Origin: an uncultured Eggerthellaceae bacterium
GTDB taxonomy: Bacteria > Actinomycetota > Coriobacteriia > Coriobacteriales > Eggerthellaceae
DNA: 64,000 nucleotides
Assembly (NCBI GenBank): GCA_905234785.1
Contig: CAJOIP010000001.1
Location: 1-64,000, forward strand
Direction: 5' to 3'
A model generated the notes under the pieces. That model was not told the origin of the DNA. It worked only from the letters and a program-made list of their open reading frames with translations, and searched no databases. Shown here piece by piece: positions 3,245 through 38,356 of this stretch (positions are counted from its first letter, which is position 1; every line of letters starts with the position of its first letter). Made by a program: the position numbers and the translations under genes.

Positions 3245-4480
3245 TTAGTTCGGCCCAGCCTGAAGCGCGCGGCTTTTTTCCAAAAGGTAGTCCACGACGC
3301 GTGAAGCGGCTTCCCCGGGATGACACCAGCATTCTGAACGCACCCTGTCGCGGCCCTGTTGGAATCGGGGGTTCTCGAGACAGTCGTCGATGAGCTCCTT
3401 GAGGTCTTGCTCGTCAATTTCGAGTTTTTGGCCGATCATGGGGAGTCGGGTGAGAGTCCAGGTGGTTTCGTCGAGCCAGCATGCGTCATATGGTGCAAGG
3501 TCGAGGTTCGGTTCGGTGTATATAATCGGCCGGTCGAATCCGAGCGCGAAGTCGAAAACGACGCTTGAATAGTCGCTTATGAGGATGTCCGACCTCTCGA
3601 GAACTTCGAAGTTGTTGTTGTCACGGTTCCATTCAAGTTGGTCAGATGAAGGGAAGTCTGACATGATCTGCGAAATCAGGTCGGCTTCCGAAACGAAAGA
3701 CTGCGGGTGTGGGCGCACGATGATGTGGTAACCCGTGTCGAGCAGCTTCTCGATGATGGAGCCGCCATACAAATTGAATATCGAGCTTTCCCCCCACGAC
3801 GGTGCGAGCAGGACGGTTGGGATGTCGCCACGAACATGCCGGTTCTCAGAAGCGCCGATTTGGCAGGTGAGGTTGTCCATGTATGTCGAGCCGGTCAATA
3901 TGAGCTCCTTGGCTGGCAATCCCCGAGCTTCCTCGAGTTTCCGAGCTTGGTCGGCGAGGAGCGCTCCGTTTAGCAGCAGCGCGTCGTAGTAGTCCGTTCC
4001 GAACATGCGGTACAAGGTGATGTCACCCACCGCATGCGTGATGTGCGCATACCATTTCACATCACGCGAGCGTTTCCACTGGTACACGTCGAGCTCCGGG
4101 GTCGTGGCAAGCACAATGTCGGCTTTAAGCAGGTTCATCTTCGCGAAACCTCGGTTCTCCTCGCCGATGAACTCGCATTTCACGTGCTCGTACGTCTTTT
4201 TAAGCGCCGGATCGTCAGGTGAGCCGGTGTAGAACAGCAGCGGCTTGCCGCGACGTTCGAACTCGTCGCAAATCGGTTCGAAGACGTTCCAGTAGCGCCT
4301 GCTTTCCGAGAGGATCACGATGGAATGCGTTTCGTCAGAACCTTTCTCGCGACCGCCGCTGAGTAGGAAGCGCGCGTTTACGATGGCGTTTCTCGCCGCA
4401 TAGACGCCTGCGCTTAGCACGCCGATCAGGATGGTGAACAGCATGCTGCCGGTGCCGGGGTCGATGTATTTCACGATCAT
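3245..4480 (-). CDS. CDP-glycerol glycerophosphotransferase family protein (TagB/TagF-like)
   Basis: A 411-residue protein with an N-terminal membrane segment (residues about 10-35) and a C-terminal half typical of the CDP-glycerol:poly(glycerophosphate) glycerophosphotransferase family: APSWGESS, RPHPQSF, then SDYSSVVFDFALG near residue 305. Family members transfer glycerol- or ribitol-phosphate from a CDP-activated donor to a wall polymer at the inner face of the membrane. GAGGAGGAG sits just before the ATG. The gene lies 24 bases downstream of the broken YidC-sulfatase fusion and is probably in its operon. The sulfatase domain of that neighbour belongs to the phosphoglycerol-transferase superfamily, so both suggest a phospho-polyol decoration. 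Confidence 0.85.
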   Translation of the reverse strand: MIVKYIDPGTGSMLFTILIGVLSAGVYAARNAIVNARFLLSGGREKGSDETHSIVILSESRRYWNVFEPICDEFERRGKPLLFYTGSPDDPALKKTYEHVKCEFIGEENRGFAKMNLLKADIVLATTPELDVYQWKRSRDVKWYAHITHAVGDITLYRMFGTDYYDALLLNGALLADQARKLEEARGLPAKELILTGSTYMDNLTCQIGASENRHVRGDIPTVLLAPSWGESSIFNLYGGSIIEKLLDTGYHIIVRPHPQSFVSEADLISQIMSDFPSSDQLEWNRDNNNFEVLERSDILISDYSSVVFDFALGFDRPIIYTEPNLDLAPYDACWLDETTWTLTRLPMIGQKLEIDEQDLKELIDDCLENPRFQQGRDRVRSECWCHPGEAASRVVDYLLEKSRALQAGPN

Positions 4481-4504: not shown

Positions 4505-7263
4505 CTAGTACTCGCCCAAGAAGCGCCAGTTATCGTTCACGGTTATGTCGTCATGCACCGCGAACCAGTTGCCGGGCAGGAACGTGTTGCCGTTGTTTTC
4601 GTTAACCTGCCAGTACGTTGCGTATTGGAGGTGCAGCTCAGGAGCGTTCTTGTCGGAGCTGTCGATGGTTGCGCCCGTGAAGGGATTGACGGGCGCATTG
4701 ATAAGGCCTTGCATGGCAAGGACCGGAGTATCGGCGTTGGTCATGAAGGCAGTGTCGGTTTGAAGGGGTCCGGATGCATCGAAGTCCTTTACAAGCAGCA
4801 TGCAGTTGAACACCGATGCGTCCCAAACGTCCCCCGAGCCTTCGTCGCCGACGATAATCTCGTCGTTTTGGCCGAGCGGCCATGCGTGATCAGATACGAT
4901 GATGATGCGCGTGTTGTCGAACACGCCGTTCTCGCGCAGGTAATCGAGCCAGGCTCCCAACTTCAAAAACGCGGCCATGTTCGCATGGTAATGAATCATT
5001 TGGGTGTCGCTTGCGAGCGTGACAGAGCCGCCGTCAACTTTCTGGCGCACTAAGCGCGTCGCACCGTATTCTGTGTTGTCGACCTTCCAAGCAGGAATGT
5101 AGTCCGGCTCGGAGAGCAGTATGGGCTCGTGGGTCGTCTCATTGGCCATCATGAGGAACGTACTCGAGTCGGACTGCGTGATCTCCGTGATGTCTTCCAA
5201 GTGCTCGAGGACCCCAAACGAGTTCATGAAGCCGCTTTCGACGCCCGTGCTCATCGAGATGCTGTCGCGGATTTGAATCGGCGGCAGGTTCGTGGAATTA
5301 TAGGCGCCGTTGTTGTACAGGGCCGGCTGCAACACGAGTGGCGCGATCTTGAAGATGCTGTAGCAGAAGAAATTGCGCATCCATGCGGCATGCTCCTGAT
5401 CGGAAGTCGACGACAGCTCGAACCCTTCCACGTCGTAGCGTCCGTCTTGCGTGACGAACGCCTTAATGTCAGGGTAGTCGTCGTAGATTCCCAAGTCGGG
5501 TATCCAGGAATAGCCGGCATAGCTCGGATCGCATACGGTGACATCGTATCCGTTCTGGTCGAACAAGACCGGCATGACTTTCAAGGCCTCGTCGTGTTTT
5601 TCGCTCAAGGGCGTGTCGGCACGCTCGTTCATGCGCTCAGGTGTGTACTCGTAACCTCCGTAGAGCGCTGGCGCACCGACGTTGGTGGCGGATCCAAATG
5701 AGACGGTGTTAGGGTAGTAAGTAAACCCGTCGAGTATCTCTTGCAACTCTGGTTTCTCGTACATGAGCGCTGGCAAATAGCACGATGCCGAACGGTCCAT
5801 CATCAACACGACGACGTTCTTGCCCGTTGCGCTCAACGGAATGCGGGGCTCTTCCTGGGCTGAGGACTCGATGGCTGATTGGGCCGAGGCTATTTCCGCG
5901 TTGATTCCCACAACGTTTGCCGCAGACATGCCGACGGCTGCCAGCACATGGCGATGGCTGCCACGCGGACGACGGTGCCGTTCTTGCGCCATATCGCATA
6001 GAGCGCGAAGCCGAGGACCGTCAGAACACCAAGGTTCACGAGCTTTTCGAGCGTGGTGATGACGGGCGCGACATCGAACTAGAGCAGCGATGAGAGGTTA
6101 CCGTATCCTGTCCCGAAGAACATGTAGTCGACGACTGCGATTCCCGCGAATATGAAGATCGCGACTTCAAGCGTGCGCTTGCCAGAGGGCGATGCTAGGT
6201 GATAGAAAATCTCGAACCAGATGAGGAACGTGCCGGCAGCGATGAGCAGTGCGTTAAGCACGTACCAGAGCGGTGACTCGAACGCGTTGACGTCAAAGAA
6301 TTCGAGCGGCGAGGCGTTCACGACCGCCGAAGGGATGAGCAGGCTGGTCAGAAGCGTCAGGAAGATGCAGCAATACAAGAAAGCGCGTCCGTCAGACTTT
6401 TGCGGGACGGCACGTTGGCGTTTGCTCGCCGGCTTGAAGCGATACAGCGCAAGGGGGACTTGCAGAAGCACGCTACAGGCGGTGGCGAATGCCTGGAGGC
6501 CCGCCGTTGAGAGCGGATGCACGAACAGGACGACAACCGCAAGCGCGATGCCCGCCAGGGAGGCGAGGATGGAAAGAGCGCGTTTCGGGTTCTTGAGCTT
6601 GTAGAAGATGTTCTTCACCAGGGAAAACACGTTGTTCAGCGTCCAGTAGAACACCAGACCCGCAGGCGATCCGTATAAGAGGATGAGGAAAATCGCCGCG
6701 ATACCGTACATCTGAACCTTGCCCTGCAGGGGAAACCCCTTCATGTAAATCGCCGCCGAGACGACGTTGATGGCGGTCATGAGCAAAGGCAGCACGTTGA
6801 TGGAAACGCTGCCGATGACCAATAGCCCATCGGGGGCGCCGAGGTCGGTGATCGGCCCGAATGGCACTCCGTTGAGCAAGCTGAGGTTCGAGAGGAAATG
6901 GTATGCGGCGATGAAGAATGGAATCTCGAGCAGAAGGGATACCGAGCCTTTAAGCGAATCGGTTTACTTGTAGTTGTTCTGCCGGTAGTAGGTTTGCAGC
7001 ATCATGAAGCGTTCGTCGCCCTTGAAGGTCTTCTTGATGTGGTCGACCCACGGCTTCATCTTCGCGGCGCGGTCGCGCTCCTGCTCTTGCAGGGCGTCAG
7101 CGCGTCGGTACAGGGACAGCACCAGGAAGTTCATCGCAAGGCTGAGCGCGATGATCGACAGCCCGGGATTGCCGATGATGCGGTTTGCAAGGGCGAACAG
7201 CACTTCGAAGAACAGCTCGAGCGGTCCGATGAACAGTTGGTATAGGGCGCTTAACACGGTCAT
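4505..7263 (-). pseudogene. YidC/Oxa1-membrane-sulfatase fusion, inactivated by two stops and a frameshift
   Basis: Read from 7263 downwards, the frame encodes a YidC/Oxa1 core (TM segments, then PWVDHIKKTF and LQTYYRQNNYK), stops at TAA 6964-6966, and continues in the same frame (TDSLKGSVSLLLEIPFF) through the rest of the Oxa1 domain and further TM segments. It stops again at TAG 6079-6081 and resumes (FDVAPVITTLEK) through two more TM helices. Near 5940-5950 the reading shifts by one base into the 495-codon sulfatase/LTA-synthase-like domain (VVVLMMDRS, SFGSATN, IIIVSDHAWP) that ends in TAG at 4505. Both stops could come from a single C-to-T change in a Gln codon, and restoring one C in TGCTGG would repair the shift. 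Intact length would be about 919 codons. The ATG overlaps the TGA of the upstream transferase (ATGA). Sequencing error is possible, but three separate lesions make decay more likely. Confidence 0.85.
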
Positions 7264-9038
7264 GCGATACGACCTTCGCCCGAAAGCTTACGGCGCAGAG
7301 AGCGAAGGGCAGCCCTTGCCTCGATGGGGACGGCTTGGCGAATCGCGCTCGAAGTGGTTTCGAATGCGCCAATGCGCTGCATGTCGTCATCGGTCCAGAT
7401 GCGCTGAAGGACCGTGGCGTGCTCGACACGGCTGAACGTGCATACATCGGAGATGCGATCGAGGAAGGTTCCAGGATCCTCGTACTCGCTCGGTTGAATG
7501 CCCAGATCGCCGAGGACGAAGCGGGGGAAACACCAGCTAGCGGTAGGCGCCGTTTGGCGTAGGGGCGTTTCGTCGCCGTCTTTGCGGCAGTAGGCAGGGT
7601 CGATGGCGTCTGCGCAAAACAGGGCGTGGCCACCGATAATGGGCGCTTCTCCACATTTCCAGAACTGCCGCACGGCGAGGCATCGTATGACGGACCCGGG
7701 ATGGCTGGCTACGCCCGCTTTGAAAGCCTCGACCCAGTTATCGGATACAAGGTCGCCTTCGTCCATGATCGCGATGTACATGCCGCAAGCTGCAATGCAG
7801 GCATCATCGATAGCTGCGCGCAGGTTTCCGACGGGCGGTAGCGTGCGCATGCGGCCCGCTAGCGATTCTGGGAATTCGCGTGCAAGCGCCTCCGCTGCGT
7901 GGGCTTGCCCGTTGCCGACGGGGGCGATAAGCACCTCGAAATCAGCTGAGTTTTGGGCCGCCAAGCAGGTGAGCGCTTCGGCAAGTTCGTCGCTGAGTGT
8001 TTTCTGGGCAGGAATGACCACGCTGAGGAATGGCTGCTTCGGCGCGCTCGCGTTTGCGGGTTGTGCGCCTGCCTGAATCCTCCGATCTATGGTGGGTGCT
8101 GGGCCCCAACTGATTGTGCCTAGTCCCGTTGCGCCGTGATGAAGCGAGCGGTAAGCAGTGTGGTCGATTCCGCGGAACGTTGCTGCTGCGCTTCCTCCTT
8201 CGATCTGGTCGGGCAGCTTTCCCGCTTTTTCAAGTTTTTTATAAGCAAGCGTCGCTGATTTGCGGAGCGGGTTGCCGTCCCAGGTGAATTCAGCAAGCAT
8301 TGTTCTTACAAGATTTGCATCGCCCCATTTTCGCGCGAGCAAGAGCTTTCCAAGCGCATCGTGGTACTGCTCGGTTTCGCCTGCTTCCCAGATTCCGCGC
8401 GGCGATAGGCGATGGGGGTGGAAAGCTGCTGCCGCAGGTTGGTACACGACGCGGTGCCCGGCGTTGCGGACGGCCCAAGAAATATCAACGTCTTCGCAGT
8501 ACATGAAAAACGTTTCGTCATCGAAGCCCTCTGCGGCCTCGAACGCTTCACGGCGTGCGAGCAGGCAAGCACCGCATGCCCAAGCAGCCTCTCCCGAAGC
8601 GGGATCGAACCACTTCGCGTTCTCGATTGGCATCTGGCGTGCTTCGACAAGCCCGACCGAGGGATCAGCCAGCGCTGTTTCCACAAGCCGTTTGATGCAA
8701 CGAGGTGCGAAAACGATGTCGGGGTTGATGAACAGCAGGAAATCGTCTTGCGAGCCTTGCGACAGGAGGTTGTGCCCCTTGCCGTAGCCGGTGTTTTCGT
8801 TGAAGAACACGTACTCAACAGCAATGCGATTGCCCGCTACCTCTTTCATTTTCGCGAGCTCATCAGGCGAGAGAACGGGCGCAGGGGAGGCGTCGCCAAT
8901 CTTCAGCGTGATGATCGGCGCGTTTTCCTCGTCGTGCCAATGCGCCGCGCTAGCGCCAATGCTGGCGACCGTGCGCATGATGGCAGGCAAGTTTTCGTTG
9001 TACAGCACCATTTGGATGCGTAATGAGCTGCAAGGCAT
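7260..9038 (-). CDS. GT2 glycosyltransferase, rhamnosyltransferase-like, with second degenerate GT-A domain
   Basis: A 592-residue protein when started at the ATG at 9038, which has GGGAG 6 bases upstream; an in-frame ATG at 9098 has no ribosome site. The N-terminal domain is a family 2 transferase: RIQMVLYNEN at residue 7, FFNENTGYGKGHN, FINPDI, then FFMYCEDVDIS, a pattern common in rhamnosyltransferases. A second GT-A-like domain starts near residue 330 (LSVVIPAQKT), but its acidic motif reads MDEGD and is probably weak or regulatory. Its stop codon overlaps the start of the YidC-sulfatase gene, implying translational coupling. Its promoter region is shared with the divergent licCA-like gene and contains a perfect 17-bp inverted repeat. 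Confidence 0.83.
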   Translation of the reverse strand: MPCSSLRIQMVLYNENLPAIMRTVASIGASAAHWHDEENAPIITLKIGDASPAPVLSPDELAKMKEVAGNRIAVEYVFFNENTGYGKGHNLLSQGSQDDFLLFINPDIVFAPRCIKRLVETALADPSVGLVEARQMPIENAKWFDPASGEAAWACGACLLARREAFEAAEGFDDETFFMYCEDVDISWAVRNAGHRVVYQPAAAAFHPHRLSPRGIWEAGETEQYHDALGKLLLARKWGDANLVRTMLAEFTWDGNPLRKSATLAYKKLEKAGKLPDQIEGGSAAATFRGIDHTAYRSLHHGATGLGTISWGPAPTIDRRIQAGAQPANASAPKQPFLSVVIPAQKTLSDELAEALTCLAAQNSADFEVLIAPVGNGQAHAAEALAREFPESLAGRMRTLPPVGNLRAAIDDACIAACGMYIAIMDEGDLVSDNWVEAFKAGVASHPGSVIRCLAVRQFWKCGEAPIIGGHALFCADAIDPAYCRKDGDETPLRQTAPTASWCFPRFVLGDLGIQPSEYEDPGTFLDRISDVCTFSRVEHATVLQRIWTDDDMQRIGAFETTSSAIRQAVPIEARAALRSLRRKLSGEGRIA

Positions 9039-9113
9039 GGAAACTCCCGTCGGTGCGTTGCAGCAGGATTGTAGCATGTCGGGATTTGCGTTCTGCATGT
9101 GCGCTTGCCATCG

Positions 9114-9148: not shown

Positions 9149-9169
9149 TGGGAGTTCTGTTTGATAGCG

Positions 9170-9175
9170 TATAAT
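9170..9175 (+). promoter_or_regulatory. -10 element TATAAT upstream of the HTH-LicC-LicA gene
   Basis: A perfect TATAAT lies 43 bases upstream of the ATG at 9218. Because transcription would begin near 9182, the TTG at 9161 that lengthens the frame cannot be the start. No convincing -35 is visible. Confidence 0.55.
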
Positions 9176-9217
9176 TTTCAGGCATGCTTTGATGAAATTG
9201 AACGCTTGGAGTTGGAA

Positions 9218-10975
9218 ATGCTTACGCGAAACCAGTTTGGAGTCTTGTCCGATGCCGCGGTTCACGGAGCCTGCTCGCAGAGGGCCGTTGCAATTCGGGT
9301 TGGCGTCTCGCTTGGCAGCGTGAACACGGCGGTGCGCGAGCTCAAGGAAATGGGGGCTCTTGACGAAAGCGGCGCAATCACGCAAAAGGGCCTCGAATTG
9401 CTCGCGCCGCACAAGGTCGACAACGCCATCATCATGGCCGCGGGCATCTCGTCGCGCTTCGCGCCCATCTCGTACGAGCGCCCCAAGGGCCTGCTGCGCG
9501 TGAAGGGCGAGGTCCTCATCGAACGGCAAATCGGGCAGCTGCAGGAAGCCGGCATCGACGACATAACCTTGGTCGTCGGTTACATGAAGGAGCAGTTCTT
9601 CTACCTTGAAGACAAGTTCGGCGTGAAGATCCGCGTGAACGAGGAATACGCCAACCGCAACAACAACTCCACGCTCATGCTCGTGCGTGAGCAGCTCGGC
9701 AACACCTTCATCTGCTCGTCGGACAACTACTTCACGGAAAACGTGTTCGAGCCGTACGTGTACCAGGCGTATTACGCGGCGACGTTCTTCCCGGGACACA
9801 CCAACGAGTACCTGCTCGACACGGGGGCTGGCAAGCGCATCATAGGCGTGCGCATCGGCGGCGAGGATGCGTTCGGCATGCTGGGGCATGCGTACTTCGA
9901 CCGCGCGTTCTCCGCGGAGTTCAGGCGCATACTGGAAGAAGAGTACGACCGTCCCGAGACGGCGCCGAAGCTGTGGGAGGACATCTACCGCGAGCACCTC
10001 GACACGCTGAAGATGGTCATGCGCCCTTACGGTGCCGGCGTGGTGCACGAGTTCGATTCGCTGACCGAGCTCAGCGAGTTCGACCCATCGTTCATCGAGA
10101 ACGTCGATTCCAGCATCCTCGACAACATCTGCAAGACGCTCGACGCGAAGCGCGCCGACATAACGGGCATCGCCCCCATCAGCCAGGGCCTCACGAACCT
10201 GTCGTTCAAGTTCGACGTGCGCGGCGAGTCGTATGTGTACCGCCATCCCGGTGCTGGCACCGACAAGATCATCAGCCGCGAGGCGGAGGCGTTCTCGCAG
10301 GAGGTCGGACGTGACCTCGGTCTCGACGACACGTTCATCTACGAGGACCCGCACGAGGGCTGGAAGATATCGCGCTACCTGCACGATTGCACCGAGCTCG
10401 ACTACGGGAACTGGGACCAGGTCGCCCAGGCGCTATCGATGGCGCGCACGCTGCATACGAGTGGCGCAGAGTCCCGTTGGTCGTTCGACGTGTACGAGAA
10501 GGCGCAGGAGCTGGTCGGGTTGCTCGACGAGCAGCACCGTGCGTCGTTCGCCGATTTCAAAGAGCTGTACGATTTGATTGACGGGCTGGCGAAATGCGTC
10601 GCAAGCGACGGCACGCCACTGTGCTTGTGCCACAACGACTTCTATAGTCCTAACTTGCTCGTGGCGCAAGGCAAGATGTACCTCATCGACTGGGAGTACT
10701 CTGGCATGTCCGATTACGCGAGCGACCTGGGCACGTTCGTATGCTGCAGCCCCTATGGCTTGGAAGAGGCCGACCGTGTGCTCGAGCTGTACTTCGGGCG
10801 CACGCCGACGGAGGCCGAGCGTGCGCACTGCCTTAGCTACATCGCCATTTCCAGCTTCTACTGGTTCGTGTGGGCGCTGTACAAGGACGCCTGCGGCGCG
10901 CCTGTGGGCGAATGGCTGTACCTGTGGTATCGCAACGCGAAGACGTTCGGCAAAGCCGCTCGCGAACTCGTGTAA
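9218..10975 (+). CDS. fusion of winged-helix domain, LicC-type nucleotidyltransferase and LicA-type kinase
   Basis: A 585-residue three-part protein. Residues about 1-65 form a winged helix-turn-helix (NQFGVLSDAAVHG, SQRAVAIRVGVS). Residues about 70-290 are a sugar/choline-phosphate nucleotidyltransferase (IIMAAGISSRF, RPKGLLRVKGE). Residues about 310-585 are a choline/aminoglycoside kinase fold with CHNDFYSPN near 470 and IDWEYSGM near 488. By family, LicA phosphorylates choline and LicC makes CDP-choline for phosphocholine decoration of teichoic acid or polysaccharide; the exact amino-alcohol here is inferred. The ATG at 9218 follows TTGGAG and a TATAAT at 9170. No LicB transporter or LicD transferase is visible in the window. 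The HTH part could let the enzyme bind DNA, perhaps the inverted repeat upstream. Confidence 0.85.
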   Translation: MLTRNQFGVLSDAAVHGACSQRAVAIRVGVSLGSVNTAVRELKEMGALDESGAITQKGLELLAPHKVDNAIIMAAGISSRFAPISYERPKGLLRVKGEVLIERQIGQLQEAGIDDITLVVGYMKEQFFYLEDKFGVKIRVNEEYANRNNNSTLMLVREQLGNTFICSSDNYFTENVFEPYVYQAYYAATFFPGHTNEYLLDTGAGKRIIGVRIGGEDAFGMLGHAYFDRAFSAEFRRILEEEYDRPETAPKLWEDIYREHLDTLKMVMRPYGAGVVHEFDSLTELSEFDPSFIENVDSSILDNICKTLDAKRADITGIAPISQGLTNLSFKFDVRGESYVYRHPGAGTDKIISREAEAFSQEVGRDLGLDDTFIYEDPHEGWKISRYLHDCTELDYGNWDQVAQALSMARTLHTSGAESRWSFDVYEKAQELVGLLDEQHRASFADFKELYDLIDGLAKCVASDGTPLCLCHNDFYSPNLLVAQGKMYLIDWEYSGMSDYASDLGTFVCCSPYGLEEADRVLELYFGRTPTEAERAHCLSYIAISSFYWFVWALYKDACGAPVGEWLYLWYRNAKTFGKAARELV

Positions 10976-11041: not shown

Positions 11042-11100
11042 AATCGCTCCAATTTTGCCAAAGTTAGATGCTGTCAACGGAATTTGAAATGGAGATCGGT

Positions 11101-13269
11101 ATGGCGGCGAGCAAACGAGTTCTTTTATCCCTCCTGTCGTTCGTGCTGGCGTTCGGGCTTATGCCGCTTCCCGCATTTGCAGATGAGGGTGTCGAAGACC
11201 CGGAAGATGCGGTTGAGGAAATCGTTGATGACGAGATCGTTGACAACGAAGGCGAGGGCGCAGAGGAAAACGCAGCCGCTTTCGAAGGCGCGGTTGAAGC
11301 CGATTTGGCGGAAATCGCGTTCGTGTATATCGAATCGCCGAGCGCGCCTGCTGACTCCGTTCAGAACATTGTCGTGGGCTTTGCTGATGATGCACTTGTG
11401 GCTGATGTGGCAGAGCTCGACCTTGTTGGTCCAACTGGCGATGTCGTGACGTTTGAATACAGCGATGTGGTGGAAGGCGCAGTTCTGTTCGCCATCGATG
11501 CATCAACGCTTGACCAAGGCGAATACGCCATCATCGAGTTGCGCTATCGCGTTGCCGGAGAAGAGGCGGCGCATATCGTCCCGTTCGCGCAAGACAATAC
11601 CGTTGAGTACACGTTCGAGGTAAGCGATGAAATCGCTGGTATGGCTGATGAAGAAGGGCCGACAACCGAAGCGTACACCATTAGCCCCGATGGTGAGTAC
11701 GTTCAGACCGATAGCATCGCTTCCGCAATGGCCGCTGCTGGCGTCGACCCTAATGAAGGACCATCGGCGGCGTATGAGGCAACAGAGGAAGGCGCTCTTA
11801 CGACTCAGTCCAGCGACGGCTTCGTCATCGTGCTCGATCCGGGCCACGGTGGTTCCGAAGGCGGCGCGACGGGCATCGGCTTCAACGAGAAAGACGTGAA
11901 TCTGAAAATCGCCCAGTATTGCAAGGCCAAGCTCGAGCAGACGCCGGGTGTCACCGTGTACATGACGCGCACGAGCGACGTAACCGTGTCGCTGCAGGAC
12001 CGCGTGAGCTTCGCCGTGGCCCACAATGCCGACTTGGTGGTAAGCCTGCATAACAACGCCGGTGGCGGCAAGGGTTCCGAAGTAATCGTGCCGCGCAGCG
12101 GGTCGTGGTACTACCAGGAAACGTACGTCACGGGCACCGAGCTCGGCAAGGCGATTTTAAGCAAGCTGAATGCCCTGGGCCTTTCCACGCACATCGGCGT
12201 GTATTCGCGCGATTGCACGTCGGGCGAAACGTATCCCGATGGCACGCTGAGCGATTATTACACGCTTATCGACGGCCCCCGTTACGAAGGCATTTTGGGC
12301 ATCATCGTCGAGCATGCGTTTGTGGACAATGCGAGCGATGCGGCGTTCCTGAACAACGAGGACAATCTGAAACGCCTTGGTGAGGCTGATGCCCAGGCCA
12401 TCGTTGATTATTACAACACCTCTGATGGTATCGCGCGCCTGTATTGGGGCGTGTACGATTACGACTATTACACGTCGCATTATCCCGATGTGAAAACCCA
12501 AACCGGTGGCAGCAAGATTAACACGTTGGCCTACTTTAAGAAGAACGGCATGGCTGCCGGGCAACGCGGTAACGTGCTGTTCGATGTCGAGTATTACAAG
12601 TCGCATAATGCCGACTTGCAGAAAGTGTACGGAAACGACCTTGAACGCTATTACACGCACTTCCTTGAAAACGGCATGAGCGAAGGGCGTCAAGGGTCGG
12701 CCGATTTCTCGCCAACGTACTATAAGGCAGCGTATTCTGATTTGCAGGCGGCATTTGGCAACGATTGGAAAGCATACTACAACCATTATGTGACGTATGG
12801 CCAGAAGGAAGGCCGCGTGGCGGTTGGAAGCACGCCGACACCAGATACGGCAATCACCAAGCAGCCACTGTATCGCCTGTACAAGCCTGCAACAGGCGAG
12901 CATCATTATACGCTCGACGCCCATGAGCGCGACGTGTGCGTGGCGCAATGGGGCTGGCGTTACGAGGGCATTGCCTGGTATTGCCCGTCCAGGTCAGCCA
13001 CGCCGGTTTACCGCCTGTACAATCGCGAAACGGGGCTGCATCACTACACGACCGATGCTTATGAGCGCAGCGTGTGCATAAGCCGCTGGGGTTGGACATC
13101 CGAAGGCATTGCCTGGTATTCCGATGATTCGCACAGCGTGCCGTTGTATCGACTGTATCAGCCTTCCTCCGGCCATCATCACTATACGAAGGATGCTCAT
13201 GAGCGCGACGTGTGCGTGGCGCAGTGGGGCTGGCGCTACGAGGGCTTGTCCTGGTACGGCATGAATTAA
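11101..13269 (+). CDS. secreted N-acetylmuramoyl-L-alanine amidase with three DUF5648 repeats
   Basis: A 722-residue exported protein when started at 11101, where GGAG lies 6 bases upstream. Residues 1-28 form a signal peptide ending in AFADE. After an acidic, low-complexity region and a beta-rich domain, an Amidase_3 domain starts near residue 240: DPGHGG, FNEKD, VSLHNNAGG and IIVEHAF supply the zinc ligands and catalytic Glu, so it should cleave the amide bond between MurNAc and the stem peptide. Residues about 450-575 contain three approximately 45-residue repeats (YY....DL, then GM..G or EGR). The C terminus holds three DUF5648 units in the order KPATGEHHYT, NRETGLHHYT, QPSSGHHHYT. This order recurs in the glucosaminidase at 15029, implying a shared wall-binding module. 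A hairpin terminator follows. Confidence 0.9.
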   Translation: MAASKRVLLSLLSFVLAFGLMPLPAFADEGVEDPEDAVEEIVDDEIVDNEGEGAEENAAAFEGAVEADLAEIAFVYIESPSAPADSVQNIVVGFADDALVADVAELDLVGPTGDVVTFEYSDVVEGAVLFAIDASTLDQGEYAIIELRYRVAGEEAAHIVPFAQDNTVEYTFEVSDEIAGMADEEGPTTEAYTISPDGEYVQTDSIASAMAAAGVDPNEGPSAAYEATEEGALTTQSSDGFVIVLDPGHGGSEGGATGIGFNEKDVNLKIAQYCKAKLEQTPGVTVYMTRTSDVTVSLQDRVSFAVAHNADLVVSLHNNAGGGKGSEVIVPRSGSWYYQETYVTGTELGKAILSKLNALGLSTHIGVYSRDCTSGETYPDGTLSDYYTLIDGPRYEGILGIIVEHAFVDNASDAAFLNNEDNLKRLGEADAQAIVDYYNTSDGIARLYWGVYDYDYYTSHYPDVKTQTGGSKINTLAYFKKNGMAAGQRGNVLFDVEYYKSHNADLQKVYGNDLERYYTHFLENGMSEGRQGSADFSPTYYKAAYSDLQAAFGNDWKAYYNHYVTYGQKEGRVAVGSTPTPDTAITKQPLYRLYKPATGEHHYTLDAHERDVCVAQWGWRYEGIAWYCPSRSATPVYRLYNRETGLHHYTTDAYERSVCISRWGWTSEGIAWYSDDSHSVPLYRLYQPSSGHHHYTKDAHERDVCVAQWGWRYEGLSWYGMN

Positions 13270-13316: not shown

Positions 13317-14069
13317 CTACATATTGCGATAGGCCTCGCACACATCGTCGACATTGCCGACCATACGCATGTGGCCCTTTTCAATCCAGACGGCCTTGTT
13401 GCAGACGCGCTCCACCTGATCGATGCTGTGCGAAACGAATAGCAGGGTTGTGCCGTGCTCTTCGACGAGCTCGTTGATGCGCGCTTCGCATTTTTCCTGG
13501 AAGAGGAAGTCGCCGACTGAAAGCGCTTCATCGACTATGAGGATGTCTGGGATTGTTGCTGTTGCAACAGCAAATGCAACACGCGCAATCATGCCCGATG
13601 AATAGTTTTTCATAGGCATGTCGAGAAAATCATGCACTTCGGCGAAATCGACGATGCTGTCGAATCGTTCTTCGATGAATTGCTTGCTGTAGCCGAGGAG
13701 CGCGCCATTTAAGTAGATGTTTTCGCGAGCGGTCAGCTCCATATCGAATCCAGCGCCAAGTTCAATAAGGGGTGCAATGGTGCCGCCGATGGCAACACGT
13801 CCCTCTGATGGCTCTAAGACGCCTGCAACAATTTTTAGCAGCGTCGACTTCCCAGACCCATTTGTGCCGACGATGCCATAGCGTTCGCCTTTGCTGACAA
13901 TAAAGTCAATATCGTCGAGCGCGCGGAAAGGTTTGAAGTGCAGCTGCCGCTTTATTAGCGCCAGGAAATACTCCTTCAGGCTGTTCAGCTGCTCAGATGC
14001 GATATTGAACACCATGGAAACATGGTTGATGACGACAATCGGCTCTCTCGTTGTAGGATCTGCAGTCAT
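13317..14069 (-). CDS. polysaccharide/teichoic acid ABC exporter, ATP-binding subunit (Wzt/TagH-like)
   Basis: A 250-residue ABC ATPase started at the ATG at 14069, 7 bases after the permease stop; the open frame upstream of it overlaps the permease and is unlikely to be coding. Walker A is GTNGSGKS, the signature is NYSSGM, and Walker B is DILIVDEALS. The segment FRALDDIDFIV and the early loop EQLNSLKEYF are typical of O-antigen and teichoic-acid exporters. No C-terminal carbohydrate-binding extension is present, so the substrate is not selected by a Wzt-type terminal-sugar domain. It pairs with the adjacent permease to flip a lipid-linked polymer outwards. Confidence 0.9.
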   Translation of the reverse strand: MTADPTTREPIVVINHVSMVFNIASEQLNSLKEYFLALIKRQLHFKPFRALDDIDFIVSKGERYGIVGTNGSGKSTLLKIVAGVLEPSEGRVAIGGTIAPLIELGAGFDMELTARENIYLNGALLGYSKQFIEERFDSIVDFAEVHDFLDMPMKNYSSGMIARVAFAVATATIPDILIVDEALSVGDFLFQEKCEARINELVEEHGTTLLFVSHSIDQVERVCNKAVWIEKGHMRMVGNVDDVCEAYRNM

Positions 14070-14076
14070 CTTAGTC

Positions 14077-14934
14077 CTAGATATACAGAATGAATTTGCT
14101 CTCGGTTTTGCGGAACACAATGAAACCGACGAGAAGCGTTATGGCTGCCATGCCAAAGCATATGAGGCACTCCAATCCGCCCGGATTCGTGTTCCACATC
14201 ATGATGTCGCGGAAGAACGTGACGTAATGGTACATGGGATTGAATTGCATAATCGTCTGCATCCAGCCGGCGAGCATCTCATAGGGGTAAAAAATGGGCG
14301 TTGCATAGTTCCAGGCGGTTAAAAGCACCGACCATAAGTGGATGATATCGCGGAAAAACACTGAGAGTGCGGCGACGAGCAAGCCGAGCCCTGCAGTGAA
14401 AGCGGTAACGCATACGATGAGGAAAGGCAGGCCCCACAGCGCATGAACTGATGGCGCAATTTGGTAATACACCATGACGATTATGGCCGCAACGAGCGAA
14501 ATGGCGAAATTCAACAGCTCAAAGGCCGATTTCTCAAGTGGGAAGATCATCTTTTCGATACGGATCTTCTTGATGAGGGCTTGGGCGTTGATAATCGACT
14601 CCAAAGCTTCGGATGTTCCGCGCCTCATGAAGTCGAACATGATGGTTCCCAGAATCAGGTACAGCGGGAAATTCTCGATGTTGAAGCGGAACATATACGA
14701 GAACACGGCAGCCATGACCACCATCATGAGCAGGGGGTTCAACAAGCTCCAGAGAATGCCGAGTACGCTACGGCGGTATTTCAGCTTGAAATCGCGCGTC
14801 ACGAGCGAGCGCAGCACGAACATGTTTTGCTTGAACTCGTTTCGCGGGCGGCGTTTGCGAACGAGCTCGTAAGCGGTAGCGGTGTCGAGCGTTTCGGCTT
14901 GCACGCCGCTATGTTCTTCTATTTGAGAAGTCAT
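14077..14934 (-). CDS. polysaccharide/teichoic acid ABC exporter, permease subunit (Wzm/TagG-like)
   Basis: A 285-residue ABC-2 type permease. A cytoplasmic N terminus of about 60 residues (FKLKYRRSVLGILWSLLNP) is followed by six hydrophobic segments, as usual for Wzm/TagG. It forms the membrane channel for the ATPase encoded 7 bases downstream. There is no Shine-Dalgarno sequence before the ATG; instead TATAAT on this strand ends 8 bases before it, so the mRNA probably begins at the start codon. It is divergent from the glucosaminidase gene. A Wzx-like flippase is also encoded in the window, so the locus may export two polymers. Confidence 0.9.
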   Translation of the reverse strand: MTSQIEEHSGVQAETLDTATAYELVRKRRPRNEFKQNMFVLRSLVTRDFKLKYRRSVLGILWSLLNPLLMMVVMAAVFSYMFRFNIENFPLYLILGTIMFDFMRRGTSEALESIINAQALIKKIRIEKMIFPLEKSAFELLNFAISLVAAIIVMVYYQIAPSVHALWGLPFLIVCVTAFTAGLGLLVAALSVFFRDIIHLWSVLLTAWNYATPIFYPYEMLAGWMQTIMQFNPMYHYVTFFRDIMMWNTNPGGLECLICFGMAAITLLVGFIVFRKTESKFILYI

Positions 14935-14942
14935 GGCTCTGC

Positions 14943-14948
14943 ATTATA
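14943..14948 (-). promoter_or_regulatory. -10 element TATAAT, probable leaderless promoter of the exporter operon
   Basis: TATAAT on the minus strand is separated by 8 bases from the ATG of the permease. That spacing would place the transcription start at or next to the start codon, and no ribosome site is present. The same arrangement is seen before prfB. Confidence 0.6.
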
Positions 14949-14965
14949 ACTGCATAAACGGGGAG

Positions 14966-14971
14966 TAGAAT
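14966..14971 (+). promoter_or_regulatory. candidate -10 element for the secreted glucosaminidase
   Basis: TAGAAT in a context resembling the region upstream of the amidase gene (GGTAGTACAAT there, GGGAGTAGAAT here). Confidence 0.4.
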
Positions 14972-15028
14972 GCATTCTCCAATATCTCTAGACTAATTGC
15001 TGTCAACGGGCTTGAAACGGAGATCATC

Positions 15029-16162
15029 ATGGCGGCAAAGAAGGTGCTATTAGCGTTCCCCTTGCTACTCATTCTCACGTTTGTTTTCGCGTTTGGGATT
15101 ATGCCATCCCCGGCATTCGCGGATGAAACGCTCATAACTGGTTCAGCCCAGTTCGGTTCGGAAGTGTCGCTTACGACGGCGGCCTCCGATACGTCCGCTT
15201 CACGCCAGCCGCTCTATCGGCTGTATCAGCCGAAAACCGGCGAGCACCACTATACGCTCGACGCCTACGAGCGCGACGTTTGCGTAGCCCGTTGGGGTTG
15301 GCGCTACGAAGGTGTCGCCTGGCACTGCCCGAGCACGGGCAGTCAACCCGTTTACCGTTTGTATAACCGTTCGAGTGGCTTGCACCACTACACGCTCGAC
15401 GCTCACGAGCGCGACGTGTGCGTTGCCCAATGGGGTTGGACGTACGAGGGCATTGCCTGGTACTCCGACGATGCGAAGGGCGCGCCGCTTTACAGGCTAT
15501 ACCAGCCCTCGTCAGGTCATCACCACTACACGCTCGACGCTCACGAGCGCGACGTGTGCGTTGCCCAGTGGGGTTGGCGTTACGAAGGGGTCGCATGGTA
15601 CGGCATGGGCTCCGAAACCGAAGCTTCCGTAACAGGTAGTTATTTCATCATGGGAACGAGCCAGACGTCGGTCGCCCAGATGGTGCGCCGCTACAACGCG
15701 ACGGGCAAGGCATATCCGAGTAGCGTATATGCGCAATATGGCGCTACCACCATCGAGCAGTTCTGCCAAATACTCTACGAAGAGGCAACGGCCGAAGGAG
15801 TGCGTGCCGAAGTCGTGTTCGCGCAGGCCATGCATGAAACCGGTTGGTTGCAGTTCGGCGGCGACGTGAAGGCGAATCAGTGCAACTTCGCGGGTATCGG
15901 GGCTACGGGCGGCGGAAACCCAGGCAACAGCTTCAACGATTGGGGAGCCAACTCGGTGCGGAAGGGCCTGCGCGCACAAGTTCAGCATCTGAAGGCGTAC
16001 GCGTCAAAGGATCCGTGCGTCAACGCCGTTGTAGACCCTCGGTTCACTTACGTCACGCGCGGCTGTGCTCCGACCGTGGAATCGCTCGGTGGCAAATGGG
16101 CTACGAGCGCAGCGTATGGGGATGCGCTCGTCAACCAGATCAAAGCGCTTCTTGCGGCGTAA
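15029..16162 (+). CDS. secreted endo-beta-N-acetylglucosaminidase with three DUF5648 repeats
   Basis: A 377-residue exported protein. Residues 1-31 are a signal peptide ending in AFADE. Three DUF5648 repeats follow directly (residues about 55-195) in the same order as in the amidase: QPKTGEHHYT, NRSSGLHHYT, QPSSGHHHYT. The C-terminal domain (about 205-377) matches the glucosaminidase family: QFCQILYEEA, VFAQAMHETGW with the catalytic Glu, and NFAGIGATGGG. It should cut the glycan strands of peptidoglycan. GGAG lies 6 bases before the ATG. The binding repeats are N-terminal here and C-terminal in the amidase, which shows module shuffling. rmlA follows 21 bases later, linking wall turnover to polymer synthesis. 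Confidence 0.9.
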   Translation: MAAKKVLLAFPLLLILTFVFAFGIMPSPAFADETLITGSAQFGSEVSLTTAASDTSASRQPLYRLYQPKTGEHHYTLDAYERDVCVARWGWRYEGVAWHCPSTGSQPVYRLYNRSSGLHHYTLDAHERDVCVAQWGWTYEGIAWYSDDAKGAPLYRLYQPSSGHHHYTLDAHERDVCVAQWGWRYEGVAWYGMGSETEASVTGSYFIMGTSQTSVAQMVRRYNATGKAYPSSVYAQYGATTIEQFCQILYEEATAEGVRAEVVFAQAMHETGWLQFGGDVKANQCNFAGIGATGGGNPGNSFNDWGANSVRKGLRAQVQHLKAYASKDPCVNAVVDPRFTYVTRGCAPTVESLGGKWATSAAYGDALVNQIKALLAA

Positions 16163-16183
16163 AACAGATTGAAAGGCAATAGC

Positions 16184-17086
16184 ATGAAGGGCATCATCTT
16201 GGCAGGAGGCAGCGGCACGCGGCTGTATCCGCTGACGACCGTCACGTCAAAGCAATTGCTTCCCGTGTATGACAAGCCGATGATTTACTATCCTTTGTCG
16301 GTGCTGATGATGGCGGGCATCCGCGATATCCTCGTGATTTCGACCCCGACTGACTTGCCCAACTTCGAACGACTTCTTGACGATGGGTCGCAGTTCGGGG
16401 TGTCGCTGTCGTATGCGGAGCAGCCATCGCCTGATGGTTTGGCGCAGGCGTTTCTCATAGGCGAAGACTTCATTGCAGGTGAGAGCTGTGCGCTCGTGCT
16501 CGGAGACAATATCTTTTACGGTAACGGCCTGAAGAAACACCTTCGCCGTGCCGTGGCCGACGCGGAAGAGCGTGGCGGTGCGACGGTGTTCGGCTACCAC
16601 GTTGACGATCCGGAGCGTTTCGGTGTGGTCGAGTTCGACGCCGACTACAATGCCATTTCCATCGAAGAGAAGCCTGAACACCCCAAAAGCAGCTATGCCG
16701 TTACCGGCCTATACTTCTACGATTCGCGCGTGTGCGAATTCGCGAAGCAAGTGAGGCCTTCTGCGCGTGGCGAGCTTGAAATTACGACGCTGAACCAAAT
16801 GTACCTCGAGGCGGGCGCGCTGAACGTGGTGACGCTTGGTCGCGGTTATGCGTGGCTCGACACGGGCACGATGGAAAGCCTATTCGAGGCATCGGAGTTC
16901 GTGCGGGTGGTTGAGCGCAGCCAGGGCATGCCTGTTTCCATCTTGGAGGAAATCGCATACGAAAACGGTTGGATCGCACATGATGATTTGCTTGCAGCTG
17001 CCGAGCGTTACGCTAAAAGTGAGTACGGTAAGCATCTGAAGGAAGTCGCCGAGGGCAAGATTATTCCCCGCAAGGAGCGTGCGTAA
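16184..17086 (+). CDS. rmlA: glucose-1-phosphate thymidylyltransferase
   Basis: A 300-residue enzyme making dTDP-glucose from dTTP and glucose 1-phosphate, the first step to dTDP-L-rhamnose. [11 protein letters not shown] at residue 8 is the nucleotide-binding loop, followed by [23 protein letters not shown] and the product-binding YAWLDTGTM are intact. The ATG at 16184 is preferred over the TTG at 16169 because AAAGGC lies in front of it. rmlD follows with only one base between stop and start. The other two rhamnose genes, rmlB and rmlC, lie 17 kb away beyond the AT-rich island. Confidence 0.95.
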
Positions 17087-17087
17087 C

Positions 17088-17993
17088 ATGCGACTGCTCA
17101 TTACGGGCTCGCGTGGCCAGCTTGGCAACGAGCTGCGCCGCTGCCTGGAAACCATGACCGCGGAAATCGGCCCAATTCCCGAGGAATATCGTGGTGCTGA
17201 GGTCGATTATGTCGACTACGATACGCTTGATATCGCTGACGTGCGTGCGGTCAATACATGGTTCGAAGAGCATGGCCCCTACGATGTTGTTGTCAACTGC
17301 GCAGCTATCACGAACGTCGACGGTTGTGAAGCCGACGAGCAGGGGGCGTATCGCGTGAATGCCCGTGGCGCTGAGAACGTGGCTCGTGGCGCCGAGGCCT
17401 GCGGTGGCAAAATCGTGCACATTTCGACCGATTATGTTTTTCCGGGAGATGATCCCGAACCGCGTGTCGAAACGGATAAGCCGCATCCCATATCCGCGTA
17501 TGGACGTACGAAAATGACCGGTGAGCTTTTAGTGGCTGACGCATGTGAGCGGTCGTTTATCGTTCGCACTGCGTGGCTGTACGGCTATGTGGGCAAGAAC
17601 TTCGCTAAGACGATGCTGAGACTCGCGCGCGAACACGGCAAGATTTCTGTGGTGGCTGACCAATACGGAAACCCAACCAGCGCAAACGACCTTGCTTACG
17701 AGATATTGAAGCTGGCGTTGACCGAGAAATACGGCGTATACCATTGCACGAATAATGGCACGTGCAGTTGGTTCGACTTCGCAAGTGCCGTCGTCGACTC
17801 TGCTGGCGTTCCGTGCGAAAAGAAGCCGCTCTCGTCTGCCGAGTACAAGGAGCGCTTCCCGCAGTCAGCGAATCGTCCGACGTATTCCAGCTTGGACAAT
17901 GCTCGGCTGCGTGAAGCCATCGGCGACGAGATGAGGCCGTGGCAAGAGGCGCTGGCAACGTATATGGATAATCTCCCAAGGCTTGACGGTTAA
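17088..17993 (+). CDS. rmlD: dTDP-4-dehydrorhamnose reductase
   Basis: A 301-residue short-chain reductase that performs the last, NAD(P)H-dependent step to dTDP-L-rhamnose. The N terminus LLITGSRGQLG is the dinucleotide-binding motif; VNCAAITNVDGCE, STDYVFPGD and YGRTKMTGE (Tyr/Lys catalytic pair) are all present. The ATG at 17088 is preceded by AAGGAG, which lies inside the end of rmlA, so the pair is translationally coupled. The gene is convergent with the large glycosyltransferase at 18070; the 76-base gap shows no clear terminator. Confidence 0.95.
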   Translation: MRLLITGSRGQLGNELRRCLETMTAEIGPIPEEYRGAEVDYVDYDTLDIADVRAVNTWFEEHGPYDVVVNCAAITNVDGCEADEQGAYRVNARGAENVARGAEACGGKIVHISTDYVFPGDDPEPRVETDKPHPISAYGRTKMTGELLVADACERSFIVRTAWLYGYVGKNFAKTMLRLAREHGKISVVADQYGNPTSANDLAYEILKLALTEKYGVYHCTNNGTCSWFDFASAVVDSAGVPCEKKPLSSAEYKERFPQSANRPTYSSLDNARLREAIGDEMRPWQEALATYMDNLPRLDG

Positions 17994-34684: not shown

Positions 34685-35713
<1,029 letters not shown>

Positions 35714-35723
35714 AGGGGGCGTC

Positions 35724-36302
35724 ATGGCTGCTGAAACCATCCAATCCGGCAACTTCACCTTCACGCCGACCTCGATCGACGGCGTCATCATCGTCGATGT
35801 GAAGTCGTATGGCGACGAGCGCGGTTACTTCATGGAAACGTACAAGCGCCCTGATTTCGTAGCGGGTGGCATCGACGTCGAGTTTGTGCAGGACAACCAG
35901 TCGGCATCGACCAAGGGCGTGTTGCGCGGCTTGCATTTCCAGATTAACCACCCGCAGAGCAAGCTTGTGCGCGTCGTGAAAGGCGAGGTGTTCGACGTGT
36001 GCGTCGACCTGCGCGAAGGCAGCCCGACGTACGGCAAGTGGGAAGGGGTCGTGCTGTCGGCCGAGAACCGTCGCCAGTTCTTCATCCCGCGCGGGTTCGC
36101 CCACGGGTTCCTCGTGCTTTCCGACACGGCAGAGTTCTGCTACAAGTGCGATGACGTGTACCATCCGAATGACGAGGGCGGACTCATGTGGAACGATCCC
36201 GCGATTGGGATCGACTGGCCGCCGTTGCAGGGCGATGACGCGCTTGACGCATCGAAGGTCATTCTGAGTGAAAAGGACAAGCAGCACCCGGCGTTCTCGT
36301 AG
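35724..36302 (+). CDS. rmlC: dTDP-4-dehydrorhamnose 3,5-epimerase
   Basis: A 192-residue cupin enzyme, third step to dTDP-L-rhamnose. DERGYFMETYK, FVQDNQSAST, VLRGLHFQ (catalytic His), KLVRVVKGEVFDVCVDLR and FIPRGFAHGFLVL are the family signatures. The ATG at 35724 follows AAGGGGGC. A longer open frame from 35439 is only a shadow of rmlB. The gene ends 28 bases before the GlfT2-like protein. Confidence 0.96.
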   Translation: MAAETIQSGNFTFTPTSIDGVIIVDVKSYGDERGYFMETYKRPDFVAGGIDVEFVQDNQSASTKGVLRGLHFQINHPQSKLVRVVKGEVFDVCVDLREGSPTYGKWEGVVLSAENRRQFFIPRGFAHGFLVLSDTAEFCYKCDDVYHPNDEGGLMWNDPAIGIDWPPLQGDDALDASKVILSEKDKQHPAFS

Positions 36303-36330
36303 CGCCCGGTTGCGAAGCGAAGGGGAGGGC

Positions 36331-38220
36331 ATGCGCCGGTTCAAGCTTGCGAACGTGTTGCTCGGCTTGGAGGATTTCCTGGCCGAGATTCCCGAGGTGC
36401 TATACCAGGTAGAAGACGGGTCATCGTGCGAATACGATGATCGCTCGGGCGAGCTCGCCGTTTCGGGGCTCGTCGATTTCTGCACGTACTTCAACGGAGC
36501 ATCGGTTGCCAAGTGGCGTCGCTACACGGTGGCCAAGCGCATCTTCCTGCACCTCGAGCTCGCGGGAGACGCCTGCACGGTGGCATTGCGCACACTCGAT
36601 GCGCCCGATGCGAGCTCGCCGGCTTTGTCGGAAGTTGTTGAAGCGCTGGAAGTCGAGCCTGCTGCATCCTTCCGCGAAATCGAACTCGAGATGCCCGAGG
36701 ATGTCGTCATCGCGGGATTCGCGCTCATGACGGCTGGTACGGTGAAGGTGCGTAACGCGTACTACTACACCGAGGTCGACGAAGAAAGCGTGCGTGATAT
36801 CCGCGTTGCGGTTTGCACTACGACGTTCCAAAAAGAGGAGTTCATCGTTCCCAACATCGCCCGCATCCGGAAGGGCGTGTTGGAAAGCGCCGACGAAATA
36901 GCCGATCGCTTTCACATGTTCGTGGTTGACAACGGGCGCACACTCGACGCCGCAGGACTTTCTGGCGGTGGCGTCACGGTTATCCCGAACCCTAACGCCG
37001 GCGGCGCTGGCGGCTTTGCGCGTGGCATGATGGAGGCGCTTGATGCGCCTGATGGCTTTACGCACGTCATTCTCATGGACGATGATGTTCGCATGTCAGT
37101 TGAAAGCTTCCATCGCACGTTCGCGCTGTTGTCGCTTGCTTGCGAAGAATATGCGCTTGCCTGCCTGAACGGCGCGATGCTGGAACTCGAGCGACCGTGG
37201 TTGCAATACGAAGACGTCGCCTTCGCCCGCGAAATGGGCGGATACGATCGCCTGAAGCACGACTACCGCATCACGAACCAGACAGAGATTGTGCAAAACG
37301 AGCTCTTCGACGTGGAAGTGCCGCATGCGTACGGAGCTTGGTGGTACAGCTGCGTTCCTCTTGCGCTCGTGCGTGAAAAAGGCCTGCCGATGCCGTTCTT
37401 CGTGCGGTGCGACGATGCTGAATTCGGCGTGCGCCTTGGCGCGAAATACATGACCATGAACGGCATCTGCGTATGGCACGCTCGGTTCGACACGCGTTTC
37501 AACGCTGCCGTCGACTTGTACCAGTACGCGCGTAATGTCATGGCGATGATGGCGTTGCACGACGACTTCTTCGACCAGGATAAGTTCATGATGCTGTATT
37601 GGCGCATCTTCCATTTCCGCATGCGCAAGATGGAATATGACGCGATTGAATTGTGGCTCGACGGGCTTGAGGACTACCTCAAAGGCCCTGAATTCCTCAT
37701 GGAGGTTGACGGGGCGGCGTTGCTGAAGCAGAACAACGAACGGAAAGAGCGGCTCGTGCCCGTTGACGAGCTCGACCCGGCGATTATGGCCGAATTGGAA
37801 TACGATCCGGCATGGCTGTCTCGCCCGGAAGATCCCGTGCGCGACAACGCTCTTGCAAATGCGGCGTTTCATGTATCCGATCGGGCAAAAAAGCTGTTCA
37901 TGACGATACCGTACGATCGGCACCTGCTTCCCGATTTCATGCTCAGCCCGAAACCCGGCGTGGTGACTGGCGTCGACTCGTTTTCGCCGTGGTGGACGAT
38001 CGTCGCGCGCAGCAACCTCGTTGTTTTGAACTCCGACGCCACGATGGGCCATGTGCGCACGCTCGACCGCGAGCGTTATAAGCAGTTGACCGAGCGCTTC
38101 AAGGACCTGATGAAGCGCTATCGTGAAGAGGGCGCCGCCATCGCCGCGCGGTGGCGCGAGAAGATGCCCGAAATGACGTCCGAGGAATTCTGGCGCGCGT
38201 ATTTGGAACGGTTGAGCTAG
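36331..38220 (+). CDS. galactofuranosyltransferase GlfT2-like protein
   Basis: A 629-residue protein with the GlfT2 layout: an N-terminal beta-sandwich (residues about 1-165), a GT-A domain (RVAVCTTTFQKEEFIVPNI, VVDNGRTLD, NPNAGGAGGFARGM, ILMDDDVRM), a domain with VPHAYGAWWYSC and FVRCDDAEFGVR near residues 335-365 followed by VWHARF, and a helical C terminus. In mycobacteria GlfT2 polymerises the cell-wall galactan from UDP-galactofuranose with the DDD and DDAEF acidic clusters seen here. GGGGAGGGC precedes the ATG at 36331. No UDP-galactopyranose mutase is visible in this window, so the donor must come from elsewhere or differ. Confidence 0.85.
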   Translation: MRRFKLANVLLGLEDFLAEIPEVLYQVEDGSSCEYDDRSGELAVSGLVDFCTYFNGASVAKWRRYTVAKRIFLHLELAGDACTVALRTLDAPDASSPALSEVVEALEVEPAASFREIELEMPEDVVIAGFALMTAGTVKVRNAYYYTEVDEESVRDIRVAVCTTTFQKEEFIVPNIARIRKGVLESADEIADRFHMFVVDNGRTLDAAGLSGGGVTVIPNPNAGGAGGFARGMMEALDAPDGFTHVILMDDDVRMSVESFHRTFALLSLACEEYALACLNGAMLELERPWLQYEDVAFAREMGGYDRLKHDYRITNQTEIVQNELFDVEVPHAYGAWWYSCVPLALVREKGLPMPFFVRCDDAEFGVRLGAKYMTMNGICVWHARFDTRFNAAVDLYQYARNVMAMMALHDDFFDQDKFMMLYWRIFHFRMRKMEYDAIELWLDGLEDYLKGPEFLMEVDGAALLKQNNERKERLVPVDELDPAIMAELEYDPAWLSRPEDPVRDNALANAAFHVSDRAKKLFMTIPYDRHLLPDFMLSPKPGVVTGVDSFSPWWTIVARSNLVVLNSDATMGHVRTLDRERYKQLTERFKDLMKRYREEGAAIAARWREKMPEMTSEEFWRAYLERLS

Positions 38221-38244
38221 GAGAGGCTGGGTACGTATCCCACT

Positions 38245-38320
38245 GTCATCCCGAGCGAAGCGAGGGATCTCCGCGAAGCGGCGGGCAGAGCCCGAGATAC
38301 CTCGCTTCGCTCGGGATGAC
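38245..38320. repeat. dispersed palindromic element (GTCATCCCGAGCG type)
   Basis: The arms GTCATCCCGAGCGAAGCGAGG and its exact complement end a 76-base element located between the two GlfT-like genes. The same outer sequence bounds the element at 51982-52111 (with CCTGAGC) and forms the unit of the minisatellite at 41667-41918. It is noncoding and could act as a weak hairpin terminator. Confidence 0.85.
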
Positions 38321-38356
38321 AAAACAGCTTTATAGTTGGTTGTCCGAGGAGGGACG

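Follow-up and report, generated by a model that had tools for sequence, protein, structure and literature searches.

Proteins of the Oxa1 family, E. coli YidC among them, have been described as scrambling lipids by way of the insertion groove, in vitro and in simulation (PMC10491306). The gene at 4505-7263 on the minus strand of the window (the whole 64,000-nucleotide stretch from an uncultured Eggerthellaceae bacterium analysed here) begins with a domain that is homologous to the YidC/Oxa1 insertases (PF02096) and unlike them in being fused to envelope phosphotransferases, in occurring beside an ordinary YidC and in having, in the type found in the window, Asn instead of the groove Arg. Its five helices and outer alkaline-phosphatase-superfamily domain are common to LtaS, LtaP, PbgA (YejM) and MCR-1, but the fusion carries a whole YidC-like domain in front of them and the identity is about 10-16 %. 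The TagF/TarF CDP-glycerol transferases (PF04464) have the same fold and Pfam family as the enzyme encoded next to the fusion, whereas the TagF-like proteins of this module have a YIDPGTGSM hairpin or are fused to a YidC-like domain, and CDP-amine genes are often near them. Glycan-decoration systems of the load-flip-transfer kind consist of a cytosolic loading enzyme, a lipid mover and an outer transferase, and the module as proposed here would parallel all three; in contrast to those systems, the mover proposed here belongs to the Oxa1 superfamily and is covalently joined to an enzyme. The lic phosphocholine and PntC phosphonate loci contain the same LicC-type cytidylyltransferase, accompanied either by a choline kinase or by the pair PEP mutase and PhnW; they have been described with LicD-like transferases or glycosyltransferases, and YidC, sulfatase and CDP-glycerol are absent from the main text of that description (PMC6697681). 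In one open-access library, searched by title or start of the abstract, we found no paper on fusions of YidC with a phosphotransferase or with TagF.

The fusion gene and its neighbours in the window

Read from 7263 on the minus strand, the gene runs for 99 aa to a TAA and for another 294 aa to a TAG, and the remainder is in another frame that is open from 5992 to 4505 (Table 1). Along the gene, a YidC-like domain is followed by membrane helices and an alkaline-phosphatase-superfamily domain. When the pieces were scanned alone, 6963-6082 matched PF02096 60KD_IMP (7.4e-15) and 5992-4508 matched PF00884 Sulfatase (6.9e-7); the 99-aa piece gave no Pfam match and weak NCBIfam YidC matches (5e-4). 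Read across the first stop in the whole-genome search, the PF02096 domain reached 6.8e-22 and 78.4 bits against a cut-off of 35. Frames and domain scans thus bear out the sequence-only reading, which had placed here an Oxa1-fold domain, membrane helices and an extracellular domain interrupted by two stops and a frame shift. The flanking genes were also as it had named them, a CDP-glycerol-type transferase just after the fusion gene and a coupled glycosyltransferase overlapping its start. The TagF-like protein matches PF04464 at 9e-14, its model (pLDDT 85.1) has TagF 3l7l as the top Foldseek match (9.1e-13), and its NCBIfam TarF/TarL scores are far under the cut-off. Homologues of the protein encoded at 9161-10975 were present in 70 of 109 genomes of the family (E below 1e-100).

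Table 1. Features of the fusion gene and its surroundings (positions in the window)
Feature	Positions	Strand	Basis or remark
YidC-like domain, first 99 aa, up to TAA 6964-6966	6967..7263	-	Groove position Asn, not Arg/Lys
Remaining YidC-like domain (PF02096) with the larger part of the 5-TM block, up to TAG 6079-6081	6082..6963	-	5-TM block assigned via the L022 model
TAG and reading-frame change, within the last membrane helices ahead of the extracellular domain	5950..6081	-	Limits approximate
Open frame, extracellular alkaline-phosphatase-superfamily domain (PF00884)	4505..5992	-	Thr and Asp-His pattern kept in relatives; fold from a relative
TagF-like CDP-X phosphotransferase with N-terminal YIDPGTGSM membrane hairpin	3245..4480	-	PF04464; 24 bases after the fusion gene
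GT2 glycosyltransferase, start/stop overlap (four bases) with the fusion gene	7260..9098	-	Frame and domain scan
Winged-helix, LicC-like nucleotidylyltransferase and LicA-like choline/ethanolamine kinase in one protein	9161..10975	+	Domain scans
ABC-2 exporter pair, ATPase and membrane subunit; presumably for surface polysaccharide	13317..14934	-	

Intact fusions in related genomes

Relatives of the extracellular domain were found at 33 loci by a search of genome contigs, mostly in Clostridia and their relatives, and also in an actinobacterium, in Erysipelotrichaceae and in a member of the Spirochaetaceae. The YidC-like and extracellular parts form one open frame of 843-1003 aa at 27 of these loci, a range that takes in the intact protein of about 919 residues foreseen from the window; of the remaining six, four run into a contig end and two (L027 and L046) are frame-broken. 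The two parts as separate genes, the observation that would have spoken against a fusion, were not found at any of the 33 loci, and the fusion claim stands. With a single open frame at 27/33 loci the fusion is more than chance, and a chance or chimeric joining is ruled out. Intact fusions were also found in relatives from the window's own family and order (G016 and G052). Intact copies are common in gut bacteria, and the copy in the window genome is broken. A TagF-like gene is present at 27 of the 33 loci and lies directly beside the fusion at 26, the exception being L047, where a nucleotidyltransferase gene stands between the two.

An ordinary separate YidC was found in 28 of the 31 genomes that hold the fusion (absent from G140, G141 and G169), and the fused copies are therefore extra. 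Some genomes hold many YidC-phosphotransferase fusions, about ten in G161 and about eight in G168, and at L041 three stand in tandem.

To compare the window copy with its relatives, the stop and the unreadable join were each written as X. So aligned, it differs at 2 of the 92 positions that are invariant among the 27 intact copies; the intact copies, each left out in turn, showed 0-11 such departures. That only two invariant positions are altered argues for a break that is probably recent or a sequencing error. The gene had been described as decaying from its sequence, and the stops and the frame change are indeed present, but decay is uncertain when the number of violations falls within the range of the intact relatives. 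Old decay is unsupported by the same two positions. Against a special decoding of the stops stand their absence from intact relatives and the additional frame change in the window copy. Broken copies are not unique to the window, since L027 and L046 are also broken; both of them keep both halves.

Structure and conserved residues

A model of L022, an intact relative of 911 aa, was based on 25 aligned rows and had a mean pLDDT of 84.9 and a pTM of 0.78. It is laid out as a YidC-like domain (1-248), five helices (292-468; 292-317, 332-356, 359-383, 404-427 and 429-468) and, after them, an outer catalytic domain with the phosphotransferase fold (475-911). Among the first Foldseek matches to the model are MCR-1, phosphonate monoester hydrolases, PbgA/YejM, LtaP and LtaS. 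Residues 480-911 gave VIA Z values of 19-21 against sulfatases, PMH, PbgA, LtaP and LtaS, as for an alkaline-phosphatase-superfamily fold, and 6v8q aligned with the model over 289-911 (rmsd 15). From this layout and these matches it follows that the protein consists of a complete YidC-like domain and, behind it, a complete 5-TM membrane phosphotransferase. The extracellular part had been read as LTA-synthase-like, and an LtaS-like phosphotransferase it is; the fold, however, is common to MCR-1, PbgA, LtaP and LtaS and does not point to LtaS specifically. YidC is missing from the matches listed for the full-length model, since the outer domain takes up the list, and that search is not informative on the YidC-like part. 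By sequence, the profile picks out PDB chains of YidC at 5e-11.

In the outer domain T527, D793, H794, H713 and D490 are invariant in 27/27 intact copies, and the Thr may serve as nucleophile and the Asp and His residues as metal site. Along the YidC-like part about 40 positions are invariant (within 14-217). The groove position that holds Arg or Lys is Asn in 26 of the 27 intact copies and in the window, and Thr in L047; in the YidC-like domains fused to TagF a Lys is kept at the matching place (consensus K41, five before P46). The Asn hints at a changed use of the YidC-like domain and is not proof of lost insertase activity. The change is only a hint because the groove Arg, although strictly conserved, is dispensable in E. 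coli YidC given a polar neighbour (PMC8920935).

Two arrangements of one module

We observed that the module, consisting of a TagF-like CDP-transferase, a YidC-like domain and a 5-TM phosphotransferase, exists in two arrangements. In the first, that of the window, the YidC-like domain is fused to the phosphotransferase and the TagF-like gene is linked with it as in an operon. In the second, the YidC-like domain is fused to TagF, and the 5-TM phosphotransferase is a separate gene, usually adjacent in relatives. The window genome itself holds two more YidC-like proteins, both intact YidC-TagF fusions (contigs C29 and C68), together with three separate partner phosphotransferases (contigs C82, C42 and C12), and all three of its PF04464 matches belong to units of a YidC-like protein and TagF. 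As the genome retains these related modules, a lost copy need not mean a lost decoration, and the earlier statement that the decoration is probably lost was too strong.

All three parts also occur in a single frame, in G071, G115 and G119 (1408, 1373 and 1414 aa); by Pfam, each of the three frames contains PF02096 and PF00884, and two contain PF04464. In two of these frames the assignment of one or more parts is weaker, PF00884 and PF04464 being slightly under the cut-offs in L093 and the TagF part being found by tblastn only in L094.

Of 109 family genomes, the same 35 carried both the YidC-TagF fusion and the separate enzyme and the other 74 carried neither; ten genera were mixed. Fusions were scored by the length of the open frame (G098 was included on a partial row and G132 on a short frame). 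The separate enzyme was scored at E below 1e-60, and a weak match in G082 was left out. Fisher's p for the co-occurrence is 2e-29, a value inflated by relatedness and linkage; identical distributions are partly to be expected of linked genes in related genomes.

The two groups of YidC-like domains each form a clade of their own, and a tree that joins them was not rejected (AU p 0.142), so that they may have arisen once or twice; the tree of the larger set was a quick one and carries a long-branch warning. The YIDPGTGSM hairpin of the first-arrangement TagF was also compared with the YxDPSVMT hairpin of the second-arrangement phosphotransferase; hhalign gave a local P of 1.1e-4 at a probability of 57 %, and 2.6 % globally, so that homology of the hairpins is suggestive only. 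Both arrangements are present in a Firmicutes genome (L139:4982-8692), where, as the one Firmicutes example, the separate phosphotransferase is without the YxDP hairpin and stands just before the YidC-TagF gene.

Genes for the headgroup

LicC/LicA-type matches were found at 15 of the 33 first-arrangement loci, and no LicC/LicA-like gene was found at the other 18 within the locus DNA examined. The company of the LicC-type gene differs among loci: a choline/ethanolamine kinase and an EamA transporter at L030, PEP mutase and 2-aminoethylphosphonate aminotransferase (PhnW) at L050, and at L047 and L048 a CobD/HisC-like PLP enzyme to which the LicC-type part is fused. Neighbours of the second arrangement include LicC-LicA with an EamA-type gene at L084, PEP mutase at L094 and a PLP enzyme on C68 of the window genome. 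A strong LicC-LicA match (E below 1e-100) was found in 34/35 genomes with the second arrangement versus 36/74 others. Within 10 kb of the second arrangement there was a match in 11 of the 35 genomes, against a rough expectation of 0.6, the 11 including weaker matches in G022 and G119 and the kinase half in G004 and G003. To judge from these genes, every route would give an amine on a phosphate or phosphonate, activated by cytidylyl transfer. PntC/LicC enzymes have been linked to surface phosphonates (PMC6697681). In the sequence-only reading the intact fusion of relatives may couple insertion or lipid movement to decoration with phospho-polyols. Coupling to lipid movement is plausible, but the decoration may be a phospho-amine, since many loci carry CDP-amine genes.

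Internal stops were seen in partner phosphotransferase or LicC-LicA genes of other genomes (G120:C154, G002:C119, G012:C48, G033:C1 and G112:C10). Together with L027, L046 and the window, these broken genes suggest repeated loss, like that of a variable surface trait.

Proposed function and alternatives

The best explanation, which we hold tentatively and regard as nearly an even matter, is that a lipid loaded with the headgroup is carried by the YidC-like domain from the TagF-like transferase in the cytosol to the outer phosphotransferase. The order of steps that we infer would start with the TagF-like enzyme, which would load a membrane lipid from a CDP- or CMP-activated group; at loci showing the genes, this group would be phosphocholine, a phosphoethanolamine-like group or 2-aminoethylphosphonate. 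The YidC-like domain would then act as a scramblase built into the enzyme, its groove letting the loaded lipid intermediate cross the membrane, and the outward-facing alkaline-phosphatase-superfamily domain would put the group onto a surface glycan as the putative acceptor. A channelling role would lead one to expect the YidC-like domain fused to one enzyme, to the other or to both. Against this explanation count the 18 first-arrangement loci where no LicC/LicA-like gene was found, the share of the co-occurrence owed to linkage and relatedness, the dispensability of the groove charge in E. coli YidC, the Lys kept at the groove in the second arrangement and the chemical diversity of PF00884 members.

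Alternatively, the module could be a teichoic-acid-like pathway, in which TagF would build a polymer of glycerol or ribitol phosphate, the outer enzyme, like LtaS, would take glycerol phosphate from phosphatidylglycerol and add it, the YidC-like domain would help to hold the polymer or pass it on, and the LicC/LicA genes would serve another modification. PF04464 and PF00884 are families classically linked to teichoic acids, and the Foldseek matches include TagF 3l7l and LtaS/LtaP. However, three unrelated routes for making amine-phosphates recur at the loci and the linkage to LicC-LicA is far above the rough expectation, and we consider such a pathway rather unlikely. It is also unlikely, and slightly more so, that the YidC-like domain has no role in catalysis and is a private insertase or chaperone for its own multi-helix partner or for a partner protein, as the homology of PF02096 to insertases and the retained groove Lys of the second arrangement would allow. 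The domain is also fused to TagF, a mostly cytosolic enzyme, the partner enzyme of the second arrangement is a separate gene, a separate YidC is present in nearly all genomes with the fusion, and the groove charge is absent from every intact first-arrangement copy. That the YidC-like domain is a mere assembly platform keeping both enzymes together in the membrane would fit its swapping between the two enzymes and its joining of both in the three single-frame versions, but is improbable, as a mere anchor is not expected to hold so many invariant positions and both enzymes already come with their own membrane helices.

Returning to a lipid-moving YidC-like domain, it is possible, if on the doubtful side, that the Oxa1 superfamily gave rise, perhaps twice, to dedicated lipid movers within envelope-decorating enzymes, in some species as a single-polypeptide machine. 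If true, this would be a natural setting where YidC-type lipid scrambling is a selected function and not a side activity. The module may also be an unexamined route by which many gut and rumen bacteria display phosphocholine, phosphoethanolamine or phosphonate groups, and such groups on other bacteria are recognised by hosts. As scrambling by insertases in vitro is already published (PMC10491306), a fused YidC-like domain beside an ordinary YidC would offer a direct test of its cellular relevance.

In the window, the regions 13317-17993 and 34694-40456 contain the ABC-2 exporter, dTDP-rhamnose-type genes and large glycosyltransferases (names partly given by eye), which suggest one long surface-polysaccharide locus. 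The exporter is flanked by genes for two predicted secreted proteins (11068-13269 and 15029-16162), amidase-like and glucosaminidase-like by eye, which share tandem repeats with an HHYT motif.
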